The notes beneath the pieces are model-generated. The model was given only the letters and a program-made list of their open reading frames with translations, searched no databases and had not been told where the DNA came from. The translations under genes were made by a program, and so were the position numbers. Below, one piece after another: positions 493 to 33,315 of a stretch of DNA of 33,315 nt; position 1 is the first letter of the stretch; every line of letters starts with the position of its first letter. Location: the NCBI GenBank assembly GCA_013697915.1, contig JACCVY010000237.1:1-33315 (forward strand), read 5' to 3'. This DNA is from Blastocatellia bacterium (GTDB lineage: Bacteria; Acidobacteriota; Blastocatellia; Pyrinomonadales; Pyrinomonadaceae).

Positions 493-1443
493 CTAAACTC
501 CAGCTTGCCGGGCGCGCCACGCCACCTGCGCGCGGCTGCGACGGCGCAATGCCAACAACATTACGGCCAGGGCAATCAACGTGATGACACCGCCGACTCG
601 CATCATATTCATCACCGCCGCACCATATTTTCCGGTGGCCGGATCGTAGTGATAACAATAGAGCAGCAACTGGTCCACCGGCGATCCGATCTTGTTTTCG
701 GCGGCCTCGATCAATCCCAGACGCAGGTCGCGGGGCGCATATTCAATTCCGTAAAAGTAGCGCGCAATTTTTCCCTGTGGTGTGGCCACGTAGATCGCGC
801 TGGCATGCGCAAACTGGTTCGTCGCATCGTCCCAGTGATAACGAAAACCAACGGCGCTGGTAATCCGAGCGATGCTAGCTTCGTCCGCGGTCAGAAAATG
901 CCAGCCGGCGGCAGCAGACGGGCGTTTGTCTTCGGGCAAATAGTCAACATAAGTCTTCTTCTTGGCGGCAGCGAGCTCCGGCGTTTCGCGCGGATCGAAA
1001 CTGACGGTTACGACTTCAAATTCTTTCCCCGGCGCAAACGACATCACGCGGAAAGCCGTGACCATGCCATTGAGCATTTGATTGCAAAGCATCGGGCACT
1101 GGTAATAAACCAACGAAAGCACTACCGGCTTTTTGCCAAAATAATCGCCGAGTTTCACGCTTTCGCCGTTCTCATTTTGCAAAACCAGATCGAGTGGCAG
1201 TTGTTCATTCAATTTCTGATCGATGCCCACTCCAGTTAACGCCTTCGGCAAACCAACGGGCGCGCGCGGCTGGTAAGGCCGCGAACTGTAGAGCGGCGAA
1301 TTCCCTTGCGTCTGGCTGAACTGAGCCGAGACAGTCGGCAGGAGCAGGAGGCAGTAGCAGGAAGCAGCAAGCACCAAGAACGCCGCTTTATGAAAGCCGC
1401 TCTTCCTGCCGTCTGCCGTCTGCCGTCTGCCGTCTGCTTTCAC
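493..1443 (-). CDS. SCO1/SenC/PrrC-family copper chaperone with C-terminal membrane anchor
   Basis: SCO proteins are thioredoxin-fold copper chaperones that assemble the CuA site of cytochrome oxidase. The copper-binding CPMLC (C116, C120) and a downstream His (H213, in FAHASAIY) are present, as are the typical VTVSFDPRETP strand-turn and a C-terminal helix (about 280-300) ending in an arginine-rich tail. The GTG start at 1443 overlaps the stop of the upstream gene (GTGA) and has a GGAG about 9 nt upstream. No other Met lies before the fold, so the N-terminus is probably genuine. That N-terminus is odd: residues 3-14 come from a perfect CTGCCGT heptamer array, and the signal-peptide core (LAASCYCLLLL) comes from an oppositely oriented array. 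At 316 aa it is longer than minimal SCO proteins because of the anchor. Confidence 0.92.
   Translation of the reverse strand: MKADGRRQTADGRKSGFHKAAFLVLAASCYCLLLLPTVSAQFSQTQGNSPLYSSRPYQPRAPVGLPKALTGVGIDQKLNEQLPLDLVLQNENGESVKLGDYFGKKPVVLSLVYYQCPMLCNQMLNGMVTAFRVMSFAPGKEFEVVTVSFDPRETPELAAAKKKTYVDYLPEDKRPSAAAGWHFLTADEASIARITSAVGFRYHWDDATNQFAHASAIYVATPQGKIARYFYGIEYAPRDLRLGLIEAAENKIGSPVDQLLLYCYHYDPATGKYGAAVMNMMRVGGVITLIALAVMLLALRRRSRAQVAWRARQAGV
1337..1437. repeat. Inverted heptamer arrays inside the sco signal-peptide region
   Basis: Positions 1406-1437 hold 4.6 perfect tandem copies of CTGCCGT. Positions 1337-1372 hold degenerate heptamers of the opposite sense (GGCAGGA, GCAGGAG, GCAGTAG, CAGGAAG). 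Read on the minus strand, the first array gives a basic, Gly/Arg/Gln-rich segment and the second gives a Cys/Leu/Ala-rich hydrophobic segment. Confidence 0.85.
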
Positions 1444-2030
1444 TGTCTTCTCTTCTCCGTCATGCGACCTGAGCTCGCTGCTGTCGGCATATCGATGCCG
1501 TAGTCTTCCGCGGGGCCACCCTGGTTTGTTTCCGCTTGAGGTCGCGAGGGCAGGCCTTTGCCCTCAAGCACTTTCTGCATCGCTTGATCAATCGGCAAGC
1601 CGACGATCTTGCCCGAATGATCGCGGCCACCTTCTTTCAATGTTTGTTCCCACTGCTCAAGCAGCACGCGATATTCAGCCTGTGGCTCACGGTTTTCGAG
1701 CGGCACCCATTGCCCATTCTCGAGTTTCACACCAAACCCCGGCGCGGACTGCAGCTTCGGATCGGGCGGTCGTCGCTCCTGTTCAGTCATCGCCATTGGG
1801 CCGGGAGATGGTTCTTTTCCTTCTTCCTGCGCGTTCAGAAACCTGAACATGCCCCATATCAAAATGTGAACCACGACAGCAAAAATGGTCAGGCCGACAA
1901 CAAACTTCAGTATGCCGCCGACGCTGACGTCGCTCGCTTCATGCGTGACGTCAACGTTCTTGATATGCGACACGTCCGGGGTTTCCGTGACGTGTCCATG
2001 ACCGTTTCCCTGGTGCTCGTTTCTAGTCAT
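1440..2030 (-). CDS. Single-span membrane protein of the ACIII-oxidase cluster, function unknown
   Basis: This 196-aa protein has a His/Asp-rich N-terminus of about 38 residues, one transmembrane helix (about residues 40-60, VGGILKFVVGLTIFAVVVHI) and a soluble C-terminal part. The soluble part contains two Pro-rich stretches and a helix with LPIDQAMQKVLEGKG. I do not recognise a named family. It overlaps actF by 4 nt upstream (ATGA at 2027-2030) and sco by 4 nt downstream, so it is translated as part of the operon. Position and topology suggest an accessory or assembly subunit linking ACIII with the oxidase, but this is inference. No heme or metal motif is visible, apart from histidines in HGHVTE near the N-terminus. 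Confidence 0.8.
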   Translation of the reverse strand: MTRNEHQGNGHGHVTETPDVSHIKNVDVTHEASDVSVGGILKFVVGLTIFAVVVHILIWGMFRFLNAQEEGKEPSPGPMAMTEQERRPPDPKLQSAPGFGVKLENGQWVPLENREPQAEYRVLLEQWEQTLKEGGRDHSGKIVGLPIDQAMQKVLEGKGLPSRPQAETNQGGPAEDYGIDMPTAASSGRMTEKRRQ

Positions 2031-3232
2031 ACAACTGAGTGTGCCGAATGCGAGTGCGCCTGTTGCAGCACGGTTTCAAACTGCGGATCGTTAATTGGAA
2101 TTAGCGCCCGCTTGCTCAACTGCCGGCCAAAAACTGCCAGCCAAAGACCGCCCATCGCCAGCGGCGCGACGATGTCCATCCAACTCACGTGAAAATGGTC
2201 GCCCGTAAAGTTTGGCGTAATCATCCACAACAGATCTAACAAACGCATCACAAGAATTAATCCCGCTACCAGCACCAGCTTGTGCGGGTTGCGCTTCAGC
2301 GAGCGGGACAGCAGGAACAAGAATGGAAACGCAAAGTGGAGTACCACAACCGCCAACGCGATTACGCCCCACGCGCCTTTGGTCCGCGGCAAGTACCAGC
2401 GGATCTCTTCCGGCAAGTTTCCCGACCAGATAATCAGGAATTGCGAAAACGCGAAATAGGACCAAAGCATTACCAGCGCCAGCAGTAGTTTTCCCAAATC
2501 TTGAAAGTGCAGCGGCGCCACCACGGTCTTCAGCGGCTCATATTTTGTCAGCATGGCCAGCGCCGCAATTACAAAGGCGAGCGCGCTCAGCGACCATGAC
2601 GCCACGAAAATGAACCCGTAGATCGTCGAAGACCACTCCGGATCGAGCGACATGAACCAGTCAATCGAAGCAAACGTCACCGTAAAAACAAACAATATGA
2701 AGCCCGGGCCACTGAGCACGCGCATGTTTTTCGTAAACCTTCGCTCGCCGGTCTGATCTTGTAATTTCGACCAGCGATTCAGAAAGAAGGCCAACGTCAA
2801 CCAGACCGCGAAATAGATTGCGGCGCGCACCACAAAAAATTGCAGGTTCAAATACAGTCGCACCTTTTCAACAAGCGCAGGATTTTTGGCAATCTCTTCT
2901 GCATGCGTCCATGGGTAGAGCCAGTGCGCGCCGGCGATTATCGGCAGGAACAAGAGCAGCATCAGCGGCAGCGTTCGCGTGGCTGCCTCGAGCAGTCGTC
3001 GAATTACTAATCCCCAACCGCCACCAGTCAGATGTTGCAGCATCAAGAGCGCCAGCGAGCCGACTGAAATACCCGTCCAAAAACTGAAGGCAAACAAATA
3101 GGAACGGAAAAACTGACCCCGATTCGAGAGAAACCCAAAAACCAAAATCCCAAAAAGAAGGCCTCCAATCGGCAGCGCGCGCTGCTGCAAACGCTTTAAC
3201 TCGGGAGGCGCATTGTAGGAAACGTGCATCAT
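2027..3232 (-). CDS. actF: Alternative complex III membrane subunit ActF
   Basis: ActF is one of two large NrfD-like integral membrane subunits of ACIII, the quinol:cytochrome c oxidoreductase that replaces the bc1 complex in several phyla. The 401-aa product is almost wholly hydrophobic, with about ten predicted helices. It has the recognisable TFASIDWFMSLDPEWSSTIYG stretch (about residues 183-203) and a later FSQFLIIWSGNLPEEI loop, both typical of ActF. The start at 3232 overlaps the actE stop by 4 nt (ATGA), and the stop overlaps the next gene by 4 nt, indicating tight translational coupling. The family assignment rests on motif and on operon order, which matches known ACIII clusters. Confidence 0.92.
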   Translation of the reverse strand: MMHVSYNAPPELKRLQQRALPIGGLLFGILVFGFLSNRGQFFRSYLFAFSFWTGISVGSLALLMLQHLTGGGWGLVIRRLLEAATRTLPLMLLLFLPIIAGAHWLYPWTHAEEIAKNPALVEKVRLYLNLQFFVVRAAIYFAVWLTLAFFLNRWSKLQDQTGERRFTKNMRVLSGPGFILFVFTVTFASIDWFMSLDPEWSSTIYGFIFVASWSLSALAFVIAALAMLTKYEPLKTVVAPLHFQDLGKLLLALVMLWSYFAFSQFLIIWSGNLPEEIRWYLPRTKGAWGVIALAVVVLHFAFPFLFLLSRSLKRNPHKLVLVAGLILVMRLLDLLWMITPNFTGDHFHVSWMDIVAPLAMGGLWLAVFGRQLSKRALIPINDPQFETVLQQAHSHSAHSVV

Positions 3233-4035
3233 TGATGCTGCCCTCCGCTTTGTGTTGCCGGCGTCGCGCTCGCTGCAGCCGCGGCTGGTTGCGCCTGAGG
3301 CTGTTGGCTTTGCTGACTCAATTGCAGCGCGCGAATGTAAGCGATGATGGCCCAGCGATCCTGCGCCGGAATCTGCGGCGCGTATGCGGGCATCGCGCCC
3401 CAGCCATTGGTGATCGCATCAAAGAAATGGCCCACCGGCGCTTGCCGCAGGCGATCGTCATTAAAGGAAGCCGCGCGCCGAAAACCGCGGCGCACGATCA
3501 TGCCGTCACCGTTTCCGGTTGGGCCGTGACAAACCGTGCAGAAAATTTCGTAGCGCTCTTTCCCTCGCTCAACAACTTCCTTCGTCACCGGCAAAGGAAA
3601 TACCTCGACGTCATCAGGATAAGCAGCCGCGCCGCTAACATTCGAGGCGTTGTTCGCGCTAGCCACACCAGGCTGAGGTCCAGCCGGTGGTTGGGGATTG
3701 TTTGCTGGTAAACTTGCCCTGCCGGCCTTCTTGCCGGTGAAAAATTCTGTGTCCGTTTTCAGGAAGCCCCGCGGCACAGTTCCTTCAACCAACTGCCGCG
3801 ATGAAAGTCTGTCCTTAAAGAACACTGTCGAACGATACGGCTTCATCTTTGGCTGGTCCTGCATGTCGCGCCTACACGCCGCGGCGGCGAGTAGGCAGTA
3901 GGCACAAAGCAGCAGGCAGAAAAAAGCGCGCAGTGGGCGGTGGGCCGCGGGCAGCAACGCGCGCGGGCCAGTGCTCGCTGCCTTCTGCTTTCTGCCTTCT
4001 GCCTTCTGTCGTTCAAATTTCCACATCGCTAACAT
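3229..4035 (-). CDS. actE: Alternative complex III monoheme cytochrome c lipoprotein ActE
   Basis: ActE carries one c-type heme that takes electrons from ActA and delivers them towards cytochrome c or the oxidase. The heme motif is CTVCH, with the axial Met in the later GAMPAY, both standard for class I cytochromes. A lipobox-like LLAAAAC ends the signal peptide, so the protein is probably a lipoprotein on the outer face of the membrane. The start is uncertain: ATG at 4035, ATG at 4026 and TTG at 4047 are all in frame, and all overlap the end of actD. The region before the lipobox is unusual. It contains KAEGRKQKA from a CTGCCTT heptamer array and CLLLCAYCLL from inverted heptamers. Residues between lipobox and heme are Pro/Asn/Ala-rich linker. 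Confidence 0.9.
   Translation of the reverse strand: MLAMWKFERQKAEGRKQKAASTGPRALLPAAHRPLRAFFCLLLCAYCLLAAAACRRDMQDQPKMKPYRSTVFFKDRLSSRQLVEGTVPRGFLKTDTEFFTGKKAGRASLPANNPQPPAGPQPGVASANNASNVSGAAAYPDDVEVFPLPVTKEVVERGKERYEIFCTVCHGPTGNGDGMIVRRGFRRAASFNDDRLRQAPVGHFFDAITNGWGAMPAYAPQIPAQDRWAIIAYIRALQLSQQSQQPQAQPAAAAASATPATQSGGQHQ
3891..4005. repeat. Inverted heptamer arrays inside the actE signal-peptide region
   Basis: Positions 3978-4005 hold CTGCCTT, CTGCTTT, CTGCCTT, CTGCCTT in exact 7-bp register. Positions 3891-3918 hold GTAGGCA, GTAGGCA, CAAAGCA, GCAGGCA, the opposite sense of the same theme. The two arms flank about 70 bp and could pair. Confidence 0.85.
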
Positions 4036-4633
4036 TTCTCGCGCCAACTGTGTTCAGGAACTGCGTAGTTTCATCGTGATTAAAACGTGGATCGTTCGCC
4101 TCGATCACCAGGAAGAACCGGTCGCGCGTAGCCAGCGCGAAATTCGGCGCATTGAATACCGGATGATAGGGCTGCGGCAGCTTGTTCAGCACCAGCATGC
4201 CGAGCACAGCCGCAAACGCGGCCACCAGCACCGTGCACTCGAACGTAATCGGAATAAAAGCCGGCCAACTGTTGTACGGCTTGCCGCCAACGTTCAACGG
4301 GTAAGCAATAACCTCCATCCAGTACTGCATGAAAAATCCGCCGAGCCCGCCAATTATCCCGCCAATTAAAACGATCAAGGGCAAACTCGTACGGGTAAAA
4401 CCTATAGCTTCCGAAAGCTCTTCAATCGGATAGGGAGAATAACCGTTGATACGTCGATAGCCGGCTTCATAAGTGCGGCGCGCAGCGGCAACCAGGTCGG
4501 ACGGATTATTGAATTCACCCATGATGCCGTAGAGCGTCGGAGCAACGCGACGCCGGCGCGACACCGACAAGTGCAGGTCGTCCGCCTCGTGCGGCTCAGT
4601 CTCACTAAAGCTTTCGCGTTTCTCGTCCGACAT
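4013..4633 (-). CDS. actD: Alternative complex III membrane subunit ActD (DUF3341)
   Basis: ActD is a small two-helix subunit of ACIII. The 206-aa product has the family's characteristic YGIMGEFNNPSDLVAAARR opening (about residue 35), the GYRRINGYSPYPIEEL segment, two membrane helices (about 80-103 and 129-151) and the LPQPYHPVFNAPNF motif followed by DRFFLVIEANDPRF. Its length is normal for the family apart from an N-terminal tail of about 30 polar residues. It lies 227 bp downstream of actC, a gap filled by repeat element B, and its 3' end overlaps the start of actE. Confidence 0.93.
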   Translation of the reverse strand: MSDEKRESFSETEPHEADDLHLSVSRRRRVAPTLYGIMGEFNNPSDLVAAARRTYEAGYRRINGYSPYPIEELSEAIGFTRTSLPLIVLIGGIIGGLGGFFMQYWMEVIAYPLNVGGKPYNSWPAFIPITFECTVLVAAFAAVLGMLVLNKLPQPYHPVFNAPNFALATRDRFFLVIEANDPRFNHDETTQFLNTVGARNVSDVEI

Positions 4634-6493: not shown

Positions 6494-9400
6494 CTAACTC
6501 TTAATCTCCGGGTTCGGATTGCGCAGCGCCGACAAATAAGTGGTGCGCGGTTTTGTATTCAGCTCGCCCAATAGCGAATAATTGCGCTGCTCAGCTTTCA
6601 GTTTCGAAACCTTGCTGTTCGGATCGTTAATATCACCAAATACAATTGCCTCGGTCGGGCACACTGCCTGACAGGCCGTCACGATCTCACCGTCGCGCAC
6701 TTTTCTTCCCTCAATTTCGCTCGTGATCTTTGCGCTCTGAATCCGCTGCACGCAGTAAGTGCATTTCTCCATCACGCCGCGGCTGCGCACCGAGACATCC
6801 GGGTTGCGCATCAACTGATAAGTCGGCGTCTCCCAATCCTGATAAAGGAAAAAGTTGAAGCGGCGCACCTTGTACGGACAGTTGTTCGAACAGTATTTCG
6901 TGCCGACGCAGCGGTTATAGACCATGTCGTTAAGGCCTTCGGCGCTGTGCACTGTTGCATGGACCGGGCAGACGGGCTCGCAAGGTGCGTTCTCGCAATG
7001 CATACAAGGCACGGGCATGAAGTGAGTGCCTTCAGGATTACTGGCGTCGTCGCCCTCGAAATACGTGTCGAGGCGAATCCAGTGCATCTCGCGGCTTCGC
7101 ACCACCTGCTCCTTACCGACAACCGGAATGTTATTTTCCGACTGGCAGGCGATGGTGCAGCCATTGCAGCCAATGCAGTTGTTCAAATCGATCGCCATGC
7201 CCCAGGCGTAGTTCAAACCATTGCCCTGATTTTGATAGTCGTAAAGCTTGGGATCGTAAAGCGTGTCGTCTTTCGCCGGCTCTTCCGACTCGTGCTCGTT
7301 ATGTTCACCGCGGAGATACTGTTCCAGAGTTTGCTGGCGAAAGATGTCGCGCGGCTCTTTGCTGAAATTCGGGTCCTCCAGGTTGAAGTGTTGTTGAGTT
7401 AGAGCAAGCAGATATGTCGCCGGCCCTTTCTCGACTTGCGCGCCCGCGCCTGACCACGGCGCAGCGGCAGTGCGAATCTCATAAGCATTAAAGCCGTGAT
7501 CGTTGCCGACGCGCCCGGCACGCTTGCGCCCATAACCAAGATGAAGGGTGATGACGCCATCCGGTTGGCCCGGCATGATGTAGGCTGGCACCGCGTTGCT
7601 GATGGTGCGACCCTGATAAGAAATTTTCACCGTATCAACGTAAGCTTCGCGGCCCTTCTTGCCATTGGTTTTTTCCAGACCCAGTTGCTTAGCGGTGTTT
7701 GGACTCACCAGCGCGGCGTTGTCCCACGTTAGTTTCGTCAGCGGCTTGGGAAGTTCCTGCAACCAGCCGTTATTCGCGAAGCGGCCGTCGTAGATTGTTG
7801 GATCGGTGCGAAAGACGAGCTCAAATTGGGTGTTGGTGTTGGCCGCTGGGATCGCGGGCGTCCCGGCCGCATCCGCCTGCGCTATATTTCCTGCGTTCAC
7901 AGAAACTGTTTTAGTTGGCAGCGAGGTGTTTGGAATAAAGCCATCATGAACACACCTGCGCCACCACGATTCGAAATCGGCTGACGGCGATGGACCAGCG
8001 ACAGCTGGAGTTGAAGCACTCGTCGCGTTCGCGGCCGGTGTCGCGCTTGGACTCGGCGTTCTGCTTGCCGCGGAAGCTGAGCGTGGCATCTGCTCGCTAC
8101 CCTGACCAGTTGGCGTTCCGCTTTCTGCCTTCTGCCTACTGCCTACTGCCTTCTGCCCTTCGCCCTGCCAGTACTCCCGAATGATGTCATACGGCTTTTG
8201 GTCATACTTCGCGGTAAACACAGCCAACAACTCGTGCGCGCTCTTATTTTGATAAAGCGGCTCAATCAACGGCTGCACGATTGTGACCGTGCCATCGTAG
8301 GCACGCGTGTCGCTCCATGCTTCCAGGTAGTGCGTTTCCGGAATATTCCAATGACAAAGCTCGGAAGTCTCATCGCGATACTGGCTCAGGTGCACACGCA
8401 GTTTCGTTTTGAACATGCGGTCCTGGTTGAGCTTCAAATCCGCGGGCGTGTTGTAGACCGGATTGCCGCCAACGACAACTAACAAGTCAACTCGACTGGC
8501 ATCGATATCATTAATCAGTTCCTGCAATGATTGACGTTGGTCGACCGGATTGGCTTCTAAAGATTCGGTGTAAAAAACCGTCTTGCCGACATTGCCCAGT
8601 GCGTCATTCATTGCATGGACCAGCGCATGCACCGCGGGCGGCGCTTCGTTGCCGGCAATTACAATACTCGCCCCGCGGTGCTGTTGCAGATCACGCGCGA
8701 TGGTCTGGAGGTCGGGCCAATATAGCGATTTGGAATGATCCTCGCCGGTACCTGCTTCCAGTCGGGTTTCGACGGTGACCGTCTGATTACCGCTGGGTGA
8801 ATTGCCCTGACCCCCGACGACACCCGCAAAAGCCCTTGCGTAGTTTTCAAGGTGGCTCGGCTTCACTGACCAACGATGATCAGCCTTCGCGCCAGTGGTC
8901 GTCGGCGTAGTCTCAATAACGTAAAGCCGGTTGATTTCTTTCTGACCCTCGCTGACGCGTCGCCGCGCCGCAAAGTCACGCGCGTAACGAAGCGTGCCCG
9001 GCATCGCAGCCAGAAAATCGGCGTCGAGCGAAAGAATGCGATCAGCTTTGCTGAAGTCGCAGATCGTGTTAACGGGCTGGCCGAAAGCCATCACAGCGCC
9101 GGCGCGCGCGTTGTCATTGTTCGCCGGTTCGTACTGATGCCACTTCGCTTGTGAGAACTCTGTCAGAATTCCTTTTAACTGCGCGGCGAGGCTGGGCGAC
9201 GTTACGGTTTCAGTGAGAAAACGAATGCCCGCGCCCTGCTTCGGACGTTGTTCATCGAGCGCAGTGCGAATCTCGCCGACAAAGGTGGACCAGGTGCGCG
9301 CTTCGTCGCGGTAGAGTGGCGTCTGCGCGCGGTCAGGATCGTAAAGACTCAGGATTGATGCCTGCGAAAAGATGTCGGTGGCGCTTGAACCGCGATCATG

Positions 9401-18456: not shown

Positions 18457-18545
18457 CTTCGGAAGTTGCAGTGCCGCGGGTAGTCTCAGAGACGCAGAGA
18501 AACAACTCAAGGGAAAATGAACCACTCAAGCTAGAAAGTCTCACA

Positions 18546-18620
18546 GGTTGGGAAGGGTGGCTTGCCCCCGCTCTGGTTGTGTGGCATTCGATGAGCGGGG
18601 GTAAACCACCCTTCCCAACC
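18546..18620. repeat. Inverted-repeat element family B, copy 3 (reverse orientation)
   Basis: GGTTGGGAAGGGTGGCTTGC with a following CCCCCGCTC pairs with GAGCGGGGG and TAAACCACCCTTCCCAACC. The loop again contains GGCATTC. The longer GTTTACC arm is now on the right, so this copy is inverted relative to copies 1 and 2. Confidence 0.85.
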
Positions 18621-18710
18621 ATGAGCTCTTGTTTGTTGAATGATACTCTGAGTCTCTGTGCCTCTAGATCGGTCCGTCCTTACCGTCCCTTCTTCAGTGC
18701 TCGCCCGCTC

Positions 18711-18773
18711 CTAAAACCTATACCCAAAACCAATGCTCGCCTGAAAGTGATGTTTCGTTTCAGCCGCAACCAT
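18711..18773 (-). pseudogene. Possible remnant of an outer-membrane beta-barrel C-terminus
   Basis: On the minus strand an open stretch ends ETKHHFQASIGFGYRF followed by TAG at 18711-18713. The alternating hydrophobic residues and the terminal Phe match the last strand of BAM-dependent outer-membrane proteins. The frame remains open upstream towards 18845 but without recognisable barrel sequence. I interpret it as a decayed 3' end; chance is possible because the segment is short. Confidence 0.3.
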
Positions 18774-18844
18774 GGAACAAACCTGGGTGAATCTATATTT
18801 TTGGATTTTTCGATTTATATGAACGGGCGCAGCGTCTTCAGAAA

Positions 18845-19195
18845 CTATCCGGGCGGCCAGCTCAACGGCCGGCCGCCAAGCAAGTGCACATGAAGATGAA
18901 AAACGGATTGCCCAGCGCCCGCGCCCGTGTTGATGACCGTGCGGTAGCCGCTCTCGGCAAGACCCGCGGCGTTGGCAACCTGGGCTGCGACACGCAACAA
19001 ATGACCCAGCAGTGCTTCATCCTTTTGTGAAGCGTCATCAAGCGAGTCGAGGTGCGCGCGCGGAATAACCAGGAAATGAGTCGGCGCCTGCGGATTGATG
19101 TCACTGATAACTACGGAGCGATCATCTTCGCGGACGAAGTCTGTAGGAATCTCACCGTTAATAATGCGGCAGAATAAGCAGTCCGGTTCTGACAT
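18845..19195 (-). CDS. HIT-family nucleotide hydrolase (HinT-like)
   Basis: HIT proteins hydrolyse nucleoside phosphoramidates or dinucleoside polyphosphates. The 116-aa product starts MSEPDCLFCRIINGEIPTDFV, the classic HinT opening with a CxxC. It includes ISDINPQAPTHFLVIPRAHL and ends with the catalytic triad HLHVHLLGG. The reading frame is open to 19273, but that extension is translation of repeat C (two KLTV copies), so I take ATG at 19195 as start; no clear Shine-Dalgarno is present. It lies downstream of murA in the same direction, with repeat C between them. Confidence 0.93.
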   Translation of the reverse strand: MSEPDCLFCRIINGEIPTDFVREDDRSVVISDINPQAPTHFLVIPRAHLDSLDDASQKDEALLGHLLRVAAQVANAAGLAESGYRTVINTGAGAGQSVFHLHVHLLGGRPLSWPPG

Positions 19196-30916: not shown

Positions 30917-31869
30917 GCTTCGTCGTGGCCCAACACTACGCGTGGACGCAATGAGTTCTTCTCCGCTTCAAATGATGCGACCGCAACGAGGTGGCCATGC
31001 TCGTCACGCAGCCTTACCTGTTCACCGTTGGTCCAGATTGTTTTTTGCATTAAGACATTCACGCCATTACGGGCCTTTCGCACGTCGTCATCTGTTAGAT
31101 CAGCGGCAGGCAAGTGTGCTAGCGCTGAGTCAGGCGTCAGCAGCACGCGTCCCAGCGACTCTTCGGCGACACTTTCTTGCAACTGTTCAAGCGTTATGGC
31201 GCGATCGATTTGAAAGACGCCCACGCTCGTGCGCCGCAGTTCCGCCACGTGCGCGCCGATTCCCAATCGTTTGCCAAAATCTTCAGCCAGCGTACGCACG
31301 TATGTGCCCGCCGAGCATGCGACCAGCACATCAAGGTCATACGTGCCGTCAAGGTTGTCTTTCACCAACCCGCCCTTCGCTCTGTTCGTTTCAAACCTTT
31401 GGATCGTAACGCGCACAGGTTGTCTTTCAACTTCTTCCCCGCGCCGCGCCAGTTCGTAAAGCTTTCGCCCTTGCCGCTTCTTCGCCGAATACATGGGAGG
31501 CACTTGATCGATTTCGCCGCGCAAGCTGGCGAGCGCTGCTTCAATCTCAGACTTGCCGAATTTCACCTCAGATGCTTGCGCGTTGAGCGCTTCCGAATTG
31601 ATTAAGGGTTTACCCGTTACGTCGCCCGTATCAGTCGCGTACCCAAGCCGGATCACCGCCTCGTATTCTTTCTCGAGTCCACTGAGAAACTGGGCCAGCC
31701 GCGTTGCGCGGCCGACAAGCAAAACTAGCACGCCGGTCGCAAATGGATCGAGAGTACCGGTATGGCCCACGCGCCGCTCCTGAAGTAAATGACGCGCGCG
31801 CGCCACCACATCGTGCGAAGTCAAACCAGCCGGCTTGTCGATTATTAACGCGCCATCCATACGGCGCAT
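30913..31869 (-). CDS. truB: tRNA pseudouridine(55) synthase
   Basis: TruB makes pseudouridine 55 in the T-loop of tRNAs. The product has the opening MDGALIIDKPAGLTSHDVV, the catalytic GHTGTLDPFATGVL (Asp41), the SAKKRQGRKLYELARRGEE segment, CSAGTYVRTLAEDFG and a C-terminal PUA-like region. The frame is open to 31935; I choose ATG 31869 (MRRMDG...), though ATG 31860 (MDG...) is equally family-like. No strong Shine-Dalgarno precedes either. The downstream alpha/beta hydrolase overlaps by 4 nt. Confidence 0.96.
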   Translation of the reverse strand: MRRMDGALIIDKPAGLTSHDVVARARHLLQERRVGHTGTLDPFATGVLVLLVGRATRLAQFLSGLEKEYEAVIRLGYATDTGDVTGKPLINSEALNAQASEVKFGKSEIEAALASLRGEIDQVPPMYSAKKRQGRKLYELARRGEEVERQPVRVTIQRFETNRAKGGLVKDNLDGTYDLDVLVACSAGTYVRTLAEDFGKRLGIGAHVAELRRTSVGVFQIDRAITLEQLQESVAEESLGRVLLTPDSALAHLPAADLTDDDVRKARNGVNVLMQKTIWTNGEQVRLRDEHGHLVAVASFEAEKNSLRPRVVLGHDEA

Positions 31870-31909
31870 TGTAGATTGCCGCTGAAAGATTAGCGATGCA
31901 GCGGCGAAA

Positions 31910-32046
31910 GAGCAGGGGTAAACCACTCTTCCCAACCCCGAGACTTCGGACTTGTCCGACCGCGTAACATTGAAAGGCCTGCGAGCACCGCTCTTTCCTT
32001 AAGCTTGAACAGCTCCAGGTCGGGAAGGGTGGTTTACCCCCGCTCT
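31910..32046. repeat. Inverted-repeat element family B, copy 4 (expanded loop)
   Basis: AGAGCAGGGGTAAACCACTC with a following TTCCCAACC (31910-31937) pairs with GGTCGGGAAGG and GTGGTTTACCCCCGCTCT (32019-32046) across about 80 nt. The loop is about three times longer than in other copies. It lies between divergent truB and recX and therefore in or next to both 5' regions. Confidence 0.82.
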
Positions 32047-32069
32047 TTGCTTTGTGATTAAATGCATTT

Positions 32070-32606
32070 GTGCGAGGGCGACGGCTTAAAAAATCTGACG
32101 AAGAGACTGCCAGGACAACCAGTCCCGAACAGATTCGTTCGCGCACCTTTCAACGCGCAGCCAAGTTGCTCGCCGCCAAGCCGCGCTCAATCTCAGAGTT
32201 GCGCGAGCGGCTTTTGGAGCGCCATGGCGTTACGGACAAACTAGTTGAAGAAGTCATTGCCAGACTCAAGGAGTATGGCTATCTCGACGACGAGCGTTAC
32301 GCATTGAGCTATGCGTCGCTGAAGGTAAAGCAGCGGCCAATTGGCCGGCGGCGTTTGCAGCAGGACCTGAAAATGAAACAGGTTCCGGGCGCGGTCGCGG
32401 ACGAAGCACTTAATTTAGTCTATGCGGAAACGCCGGAAGAAGAATTGATTGACCGCGCTATTGAGAAACGCATTCGTTTGCGCGGCCAACCGAAGACTCG
32501 TCTCGAAGCGAAAAGTCTTTTTGATCACTTGCTGCGCCAGGGTTTTGCTTTTGAGTTAGTCAGCGACAAGGTGCGTCGCATTTCAAAGACCGACCTCGAC
32601 GAGTGA
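32070..32606 (+). CDS. recX: Regulatory protein RecX
   Basis: RecX binds RecA filaments and limits recombinase activity. The 178-aa product has the three-helix repeats typical of RecX: TFQRAAKLLAAKPRSISELRERLLERHG, then LKEYGYLDDERYALSYASLKVKQRPIGRRRLQQDL, and C-terminal LLRQGFAFELVSDKV. The start is GTG at 32070; no Shine-Dalgarno is obvious, so an internal start is possible. recA is not in the window. It is followed after about 150 bp by alaS, a common neighbour of recX. Confidence 0.93.
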   Translation: MRGRRLKKSDEETARTTSPEQIRSRTFQRAAKLLAAKPRSISELRERLLERHGVTDKLVEEVIARLKEYGYLDDERYALSYASLKVKQRPIGRRRLQQDLKMKQVPGAVADEALNLVYAETPEEELIDRAIEKRIRLRGQPKTRLEAKSLFDHLLRQGFAFELVSDKVRRISKTDLDE

Positions 32607-32689: not shown

Positions 32690-32759
32690 CAGTTGTCAGT
32701 GGCTAGTGGTCAGTCGCAAATTTGCTTCTGCCTACTGCCTACTGCCGACTGCCTACTGA
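32690..32759. repeat. Two heptamer arrays directly before alaS
   Basis: CAGTTGT, CAGTGGC, TAGTGGT, CAGTCGC (32690-32717) are followed by CTTCTGC, CTACTGC, CTACTGC, CGACTGC, CTACTGA (32725-32759). The second array ends 3 nt before the alaS ATG. Confidence 0.88.

Positions 32760-33315
<556 letters not shown>

Follow-up and report, generated by a model that had tools for sequence, protein, structure and literature searches.

The DNA analyzed here, a 33,315-nucleotide stretch that we refer to as the window, carries on its minus strand an alternative complex III operon in which the signal peptides of two conserved respiratory-chain proteins are encoded largely by inverted arrays of 7-nucleotide units. 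The locus raises the question of whether such repeats create secretion signals, as the preliminary description proposed, or entered proteins that were already secreted. The operon encodes a cytochrome c7/c3-type protein, an ActB-like Fe-S protein, an NrfD-type ActC, ActD, a cytochrome c at the ActE position, two more proteins, an SCO1/SenC protein (SCO), and the start of a putative oxidase subunit II. The oxidase subunit II-like protein was assigned by reading of the sequence and the remaining operon genes by Pfam matches.

Inverted arrays in the SCO and ActE signal peptides

The SCO1/SenC-family gene (positions 493 to 1443, minus strand; PF02630, E=1.3e-7) begins, when read codon by codon, with (V/M)KADGRRQTADGRKS-GFHKAAFLVLAA-SCYCLLLLPTVSA^Q. 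Its basic arm (1401 to 1437, minus strand), (ACGGCAG)n in the coding sense, encodes ADGRRQTADGR, and its hydrophobic arm (1335 to 1372, minus strand), CTGCTTCCTGCTACTGCCTCCTGCTCCTGCCGA in the coding sense, encodes SCYCLLLLP right before VSA^Q. The spacer GFHKAAFLVLAA between the arms (1373 to 1400, minus strand) is the source of the last, core-nearest Lys and of the first half of the hydrophobic core (about SGFHKAAFLVLA). As a Sec/SPI signal, VSA^Q fits an A-x-A-like site by eye, and a heuristic scan flagged the region but picked an internal Cys.

The gene at the ActE position (3229 to 4035, minus strand; PF13442, E=4.4e-13) encodes a cytochrome c with a lipoprotein-type signal, and its N terminus reads MLAMWKFERQKAEGRKQKAASTGPRALLPAAHRPLRAFFCLLLCAYCLLAAAAC^RRDMQ. 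The basic arm (3976 to 4013, minus strand), (CAGAAGG)n in the coding sense, encodes RQKAEGRKQKA, and the hydrophobic arm (3891 to 3920, minus strand) encodes FCLLLCAYCLL just ahead of the lipobox Cys (codon 3874 to 3876), with 15 to 20 spacer residues (ASTGPRALLPAAHRPLR), ending in Arg, between the two. Basic residues, a hydrophobic core, and a lipobox Cys (LLAAAAC) are all present, as expected of a Sec/SPII signal; the heuristic scan was positive and CRRDMQ is conserved across relatives. The arms fold as long hairpins in both genes (z = -2.2 for SCO and -3.1 for ActE).

Both genes start where another gene ends. The SCO start codon, GTG at 1441 to 1443, overlaps the stop codon of the upstream gene (GTGA), and in relatives the same position is an ATG at the same stop-start overlap. 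ActE starts with ATG at 4035 or 4026, in a context common to the loci L109 and L113, and overlaps the 3' end of ActD (4013 to 4633, minus strand; PF11821, E=4.9e-68), whose stop codon falls within the 5' coding sequence of ActE. Since these starts upstream of the arrays are kept at the overlap in relatives, translation runs through the arrays.

The two arrays and both N termini thus read as first described. The further proposal that one arm supplies the n-region and the other the core was borne out only in part: a basic stretch near the N terminus and the h-region are indeed encoded by the arms, but the basic arm does not adjoin the core and the core-proximal charges come from the spacer in both genes. 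The basic arm is not clearly the functional n-region. Of the two arms, the hydrophobic one is most likely the one that matters.

Related arrays of the CTGCC type also lie elsewhere in the window. One (8113 to 8166, minus strand) is in frame and falls within a linker (GQKAVGSRQKAESG) in the ActB-like iron-sulfur protein, and another, an untranslated example of the same family, is at a non-coding junction (32722 to 32761, plus strand).

Strand hydropathy and heptamers across the genome

Because 7 is coprime to 3, a heptamer array yields the same 7-residue cycle in every reading frame. The hydropathies encoded by complementary codons are anticorrelated, and we found the same for whole heptamers, with r=-0.71 between strands across the 590 stop-free heptamer classes; that one sense of an array is basic and the other hydrophobic, as had been claimed, follows from the inverted heptamers. 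CTGCCTT, for example, encodes LPSAFCL, with a mean hydropathy of 1.76, whereas its complement encodes KAEGRRQ (+2), and more generally the CTGCC arm reads Leu/Cys/Ala-rich and the GGCAG arm basic. The common unit CTGCCTA has a stop codon in its complementary arm, which limits which arrays can be coding.

We scored self-similarity by lag in an 829-kb genome sample taken as stretches. Arrays numbered 112 at lag 7, 70 at lag 14, and 19 at lag 21, compared with 0 to 5 at every other lag tested, an excess well above chance, and 95 of the 112 lag-7 arrays were intergenic. The commonest units included AAACTTG, AAATCGT, AAACTCG, and CTGCCNN, and it is period 7 as such, rather than one particular sequence, that is favored. 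Dozens of unrelated heptamer units form arrays in the sample, AAAGACC and AACTGAC also among them. The CTGC-type pattern CTGCNNNCTGCNNNCTGC matched 99 times in the genome against 3 times for a reversed control, and many genomes of the class, though not every one, have it in abundance.

According to the gene caller, 35 of 46 strict CTGC sites lie in non-coding junctions, several directly at stop codons, although one of the 35 (L062) is actually the signal peptide of L192:14932. Strict sites occur close to stop codons and at tandem or convergent junctions, and others of the 46 make C-terminal tails such as GNRQEAVGSRQ*. At L047, L063, and L071, CTGCC-type arrays give both the tail and the stop codon (KKQKAVGRKQ*, NRQEAVGSRQ*, and KSEGSRQ*). 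When all heptamer families were pooled, proximity to stop codons was modest and proximity to starts similar, and we rejected a strong placement of all families at 3' ends only. The order of the arms is fixed: the GCAG arm precedes the CTGC arm, basic first, in each of the 12 CTGC pairs with opposite arms that we scored, and most of the elements listed for G022 and G135 show the same order. The elements vary in unit number and in sequence, and no fixed termini were seen.

Arrays were not significantly enriched in signal peptides. Among 413 signal peptides predicted heuristically outside SCO and ActE, 9 carry them, against 12 of 1,075 other gene starts (Fisher p=0.14), and the idea of a general route to secretion signals is not supported; an earlier count that looked stronger had taken in some matches upstream of the start codon, and no genome-wide excess was found. 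Scattered further cases exist (L192:14932, MFAQRSLFVILLLSAICLLPAAFSSAQ; L246; L288; L299). Several cases beyond SCO and ActE likewise start at a tandem stop-start junction. Of 10 array-bearing signal peptides, 7 have a stop codon no more than ∼40 nt upstream of their start, compared with 16% of genes, in a comparison that uses few cases and two gene-calling rules. For a predicted secreted protein at L288:5430-5500 (G135), a (GAAGGAT)n/(ATCCTTC)n pair gives a possible ribosome site, the ATG (GAAGGATGAAGGATG), and the n-region.

Turnover of the arrays among relatives

The relatives compared were Pyrinomonadaceae/Blastocatellia metagenome-assembled genomes (Acidobacteriota). In the Blastocatellia set, which was picked by kinship and may include a few loci from other classes, such as L125, the signal-peptide region showed period 7 in 22 of 36 SCO and 13 of 19 ActE genes; in other taxa the counts were 2 of 22 and 0 of 54. 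The mature regions of both proteins lack the period-7 signal, and control lags reach signal in some loci only, several of them with period-8 repeats. Each region was also compared with 12 codon shuffles of itself and scored if its inverted repeat exceeded all 12. This was so for 21 of 35 SCO and 13 of 19 ActE regions in Blastocatellia and, outside, for 1 of 23 and 4 of 54, roughly the rate expected from 12 shuffles, with the SCO of the window itself tallied under "other" through its duplicate L079.

The repeat units differ among members of the class, with peptides of the CLLPSAF, LLTAHCS, FCLLPFSF, and LPTAYCL types and octamers encoding VSPSPRLR. Units differ even between close relatives, and we rejected the inheritance of one ancestral repeat passed down unchanged. 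On the SCO tree, well-supported branches force no fewer than 5 changes of the heptamer label, and parsimony gives 10, in both cases counted without direction. In both genes, n-side arms pair on average better with their own h-side arm than with that of other species (p=0.0005 by a permutation that ignores relatedness). Between this genome and G004, the two ActE arms switched together from the GGCAGAA/CTGCC to the GTGTGCA/TGCTCAC type; the ActE signal peptide is 58% identical between the two and mature ActE 85%, with coding DNA mostly 82 to 92% identical. The comparisons within Blastocatellia show array variants rather than an empty site and its filled counterpart carrying a target duplication.

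The Cys/Leu-rich core goes with the arrays, as had been suggested: array-less relatives mostly have ordinary cores, so that the comparison named in the preliminary description as a possible refutation came out in its favor, and Cys in the core averages 1.91 in heptamer cases versus 0.64 in the others for SCO, and 1.69 versus 0.37 to 0.83 for ActE. In some members the signal peptide is short and ordinary (ActE of L112, MSRFRNTFGIGVLLAVVCFAGAAC; SCO of L092, MRILVRIVVVMACFAVAAPVFA). The repeats do not create secretion: a normal signal peptide is already present in orthologues that lack them, and the repeats appear to replace or lengthen a preexisting one.

Two observations lie beside this pattern. 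The octamer family (GTCTCCGC type, peptide VSPSPRLR) is found in SCO or ActE n-regions of L087, L122, L116, and L115. In L136, an Acidobacteria bacterium outside the Blastocatellia set, period-7 DNA likewise encodes the SCO signal peptide MIRFWALGFGLWVLCL, and the phenomenon may therefore extend beyond Blastocatellia.

Origin of the repeat-derived cores and known counterparts

The explanation that we favor, with a probability of about 70%, is that junction heptamer hairpins, translated where genes overlap, have been tolerated and co-opted as signal-peptide cores and have then kept turning over. Hairpin-type heptamer elements, with the GGCAG arm first and the CTGCC arm second on either strand, would populate Blastocatellia gene junctions. 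Between ActD and ActE and ahead of SCO, where stop and start overlap, the junction doubles as the 5' coding region of the gene that follows, and a new or changing element there would be translated. Given a Leu/Cys/Ala-rich CTGCC arm and a basic GGCAG arm in every frame, an insertion ahead of a secreted protein should be tolerated and could serve as the core, with the array probably driving export in place of the ancestral core that it displaced. The array may thereafter change through unit slippage and the joint replacement or copying of both arms. A bolder form of this explanation, which we find doubtful and advance only tentatively, treats inverted heptamer arrays as portable, strand- and frame-independent signal-peptide cassettes: a stop-free CTGCC insertion at a stop-start junction would bring a basic stretch and a core at once, and Blastocatellia would repeatedly refresh their signals in this way.

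Other explanations were weighed against these data. Selection might act on the hairpin itself, as RNA or DNA, for mRNA structure at operon junctions, translational coupling, or 3'-end protection, with the peptide constrained only to stay a signal peptide. The z values, the covariation of the arms, and the location of most elements at non-coding junctions would all agree with this, but the ActE junction of L112 and the SCO junction of L092 have neither hairpin nor heptamer, and neither a consensus structure nor a position is conserved; we regard it as unlikely. About equally unlikely is the original idea that new secretion signals arise generally from inverted heptamer arrays, with one arm giving the n-region and the other the h-region. 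The basic-then-hydrophobic order of the scored CTGC elements, the anticorrelated hydropathies of the arms, and the scattered further cases are what this idea would predict, whereas the comparison with other gene starts, the conserved genes having been secreted beforehand, and the spacer origin of the core-proximal charges argue against it.

Misplaced starts, with translation beginning past the arrays, might be suspected from the GTG start of SCO and from TTG and GTG codons near the core. In both genes, however, the overlapping starts are conserved, with ATG in relatives at the SCO position; the first arm lies downstream of the start, and the second is the core beside the cleavage site, which makes this explanation very improbable, and we rejected it. 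The least credible explanation is a coincidence of codon usage, in which Leu/Cys/Ala-rich cores written in CTG and TGC mimic CTGCC heptamers. CTG and GCC are indeed common codons, but the excess is present at lags 7 and 14 and absent at control lags, the complementary arm is present, and none of the 54 ActE genes in other taxa shows period 7 despite equally hydrophobic cores. The lag controls and the outgroups led us to reject it.

The closest conceptual precedent is the RU-2/YPAL element in the signal peptide of Yersinia YPO1552 (Delihas 2007, PMC2759123; review PMC2229807). RU-2/YPAL is a 168-bp MITE-like unit in one gene, whereas the arrays described here consist of heptamers in tandem, with many different units; they recur among members of a bacterial class in two genes, and are read independently of frame. 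Rickettsia palindromic elements (RPEs), as summarized in PMC2229807, are palindromic repeats of 105 to 146 bp translated in frame within conserved proteins and tolerated there. The inverted arms and fixed arm order of our arrays match MITE/RPE-like elements; our arrays, however, are heptameric and for the most part non-coding, and those coding arrays with which this work is concerned fall within signal peptides.

In their period of exactly 7, their several units, and their mostly intergenic location, the arrays are STRR-like heptameric simple sequence repeats. In the sections of the reports drawn on here, the heptameric intergenic repeats of Xanthomonas and Nostoc (PMC4692102), cyanobacterial STRR, and the TAACTGA arrays of Beggiatoaceae (PMC4679880) are 7-nt tandem units over-represented in non-coding DNA. 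Like our arrays, some are inverted, they vary between close strains, and they occur occasionally at protein ends (PMC4692102, PMC4679880). In those same sections, they comprise one or few units per genome and signal peptides are not described, whereas here units are many and the CTGCC types encode cores; our units also differ from GGGAATC, GGGGATT, and TAACTGA (PMC4692102, PMC4679880), indicating the same kind of repeat and not the same family. Borg tandem repeats are fast evolving, translated into new protein segments, and enriched in signal-peptide proteins (PMC9879509), but the coding units there have lengths divisible by three, unlike the 7-nt units here, and produce disordered regions. 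A search of the literature on heptamers in Acidobacteriota and on repeat-born signal peptides, with subscription journals mostly outside its scope, did not find the present case.

The arrays are a repeated natural case of non-coding tandem repeats joining conserved proteins free of frame constraint, with the two strands of one repeat supplying opposite hydropathy. Our results from a family of soil bacteria suggest that junk-like intergenic repeats can be co-opted as protein export signals, although elsewhere in the genome this seldom happens. The long-standing view that almost any sequence can give rise to a signal peptide becomes testable in orthologues differing in repeat content, and gene finders and signal-peptide predictors should be applied to these genomes with caution.

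Another repeat, SGGKPPFPT, occurs in window open reading frames at 18471 to 18893 (plus strand) and 31631 to 32146 (minus strand), and it recurs as SGGKPLFLTC in a relative (L089), whose SCO signal peptide contains it together with a strong inverted repeat.
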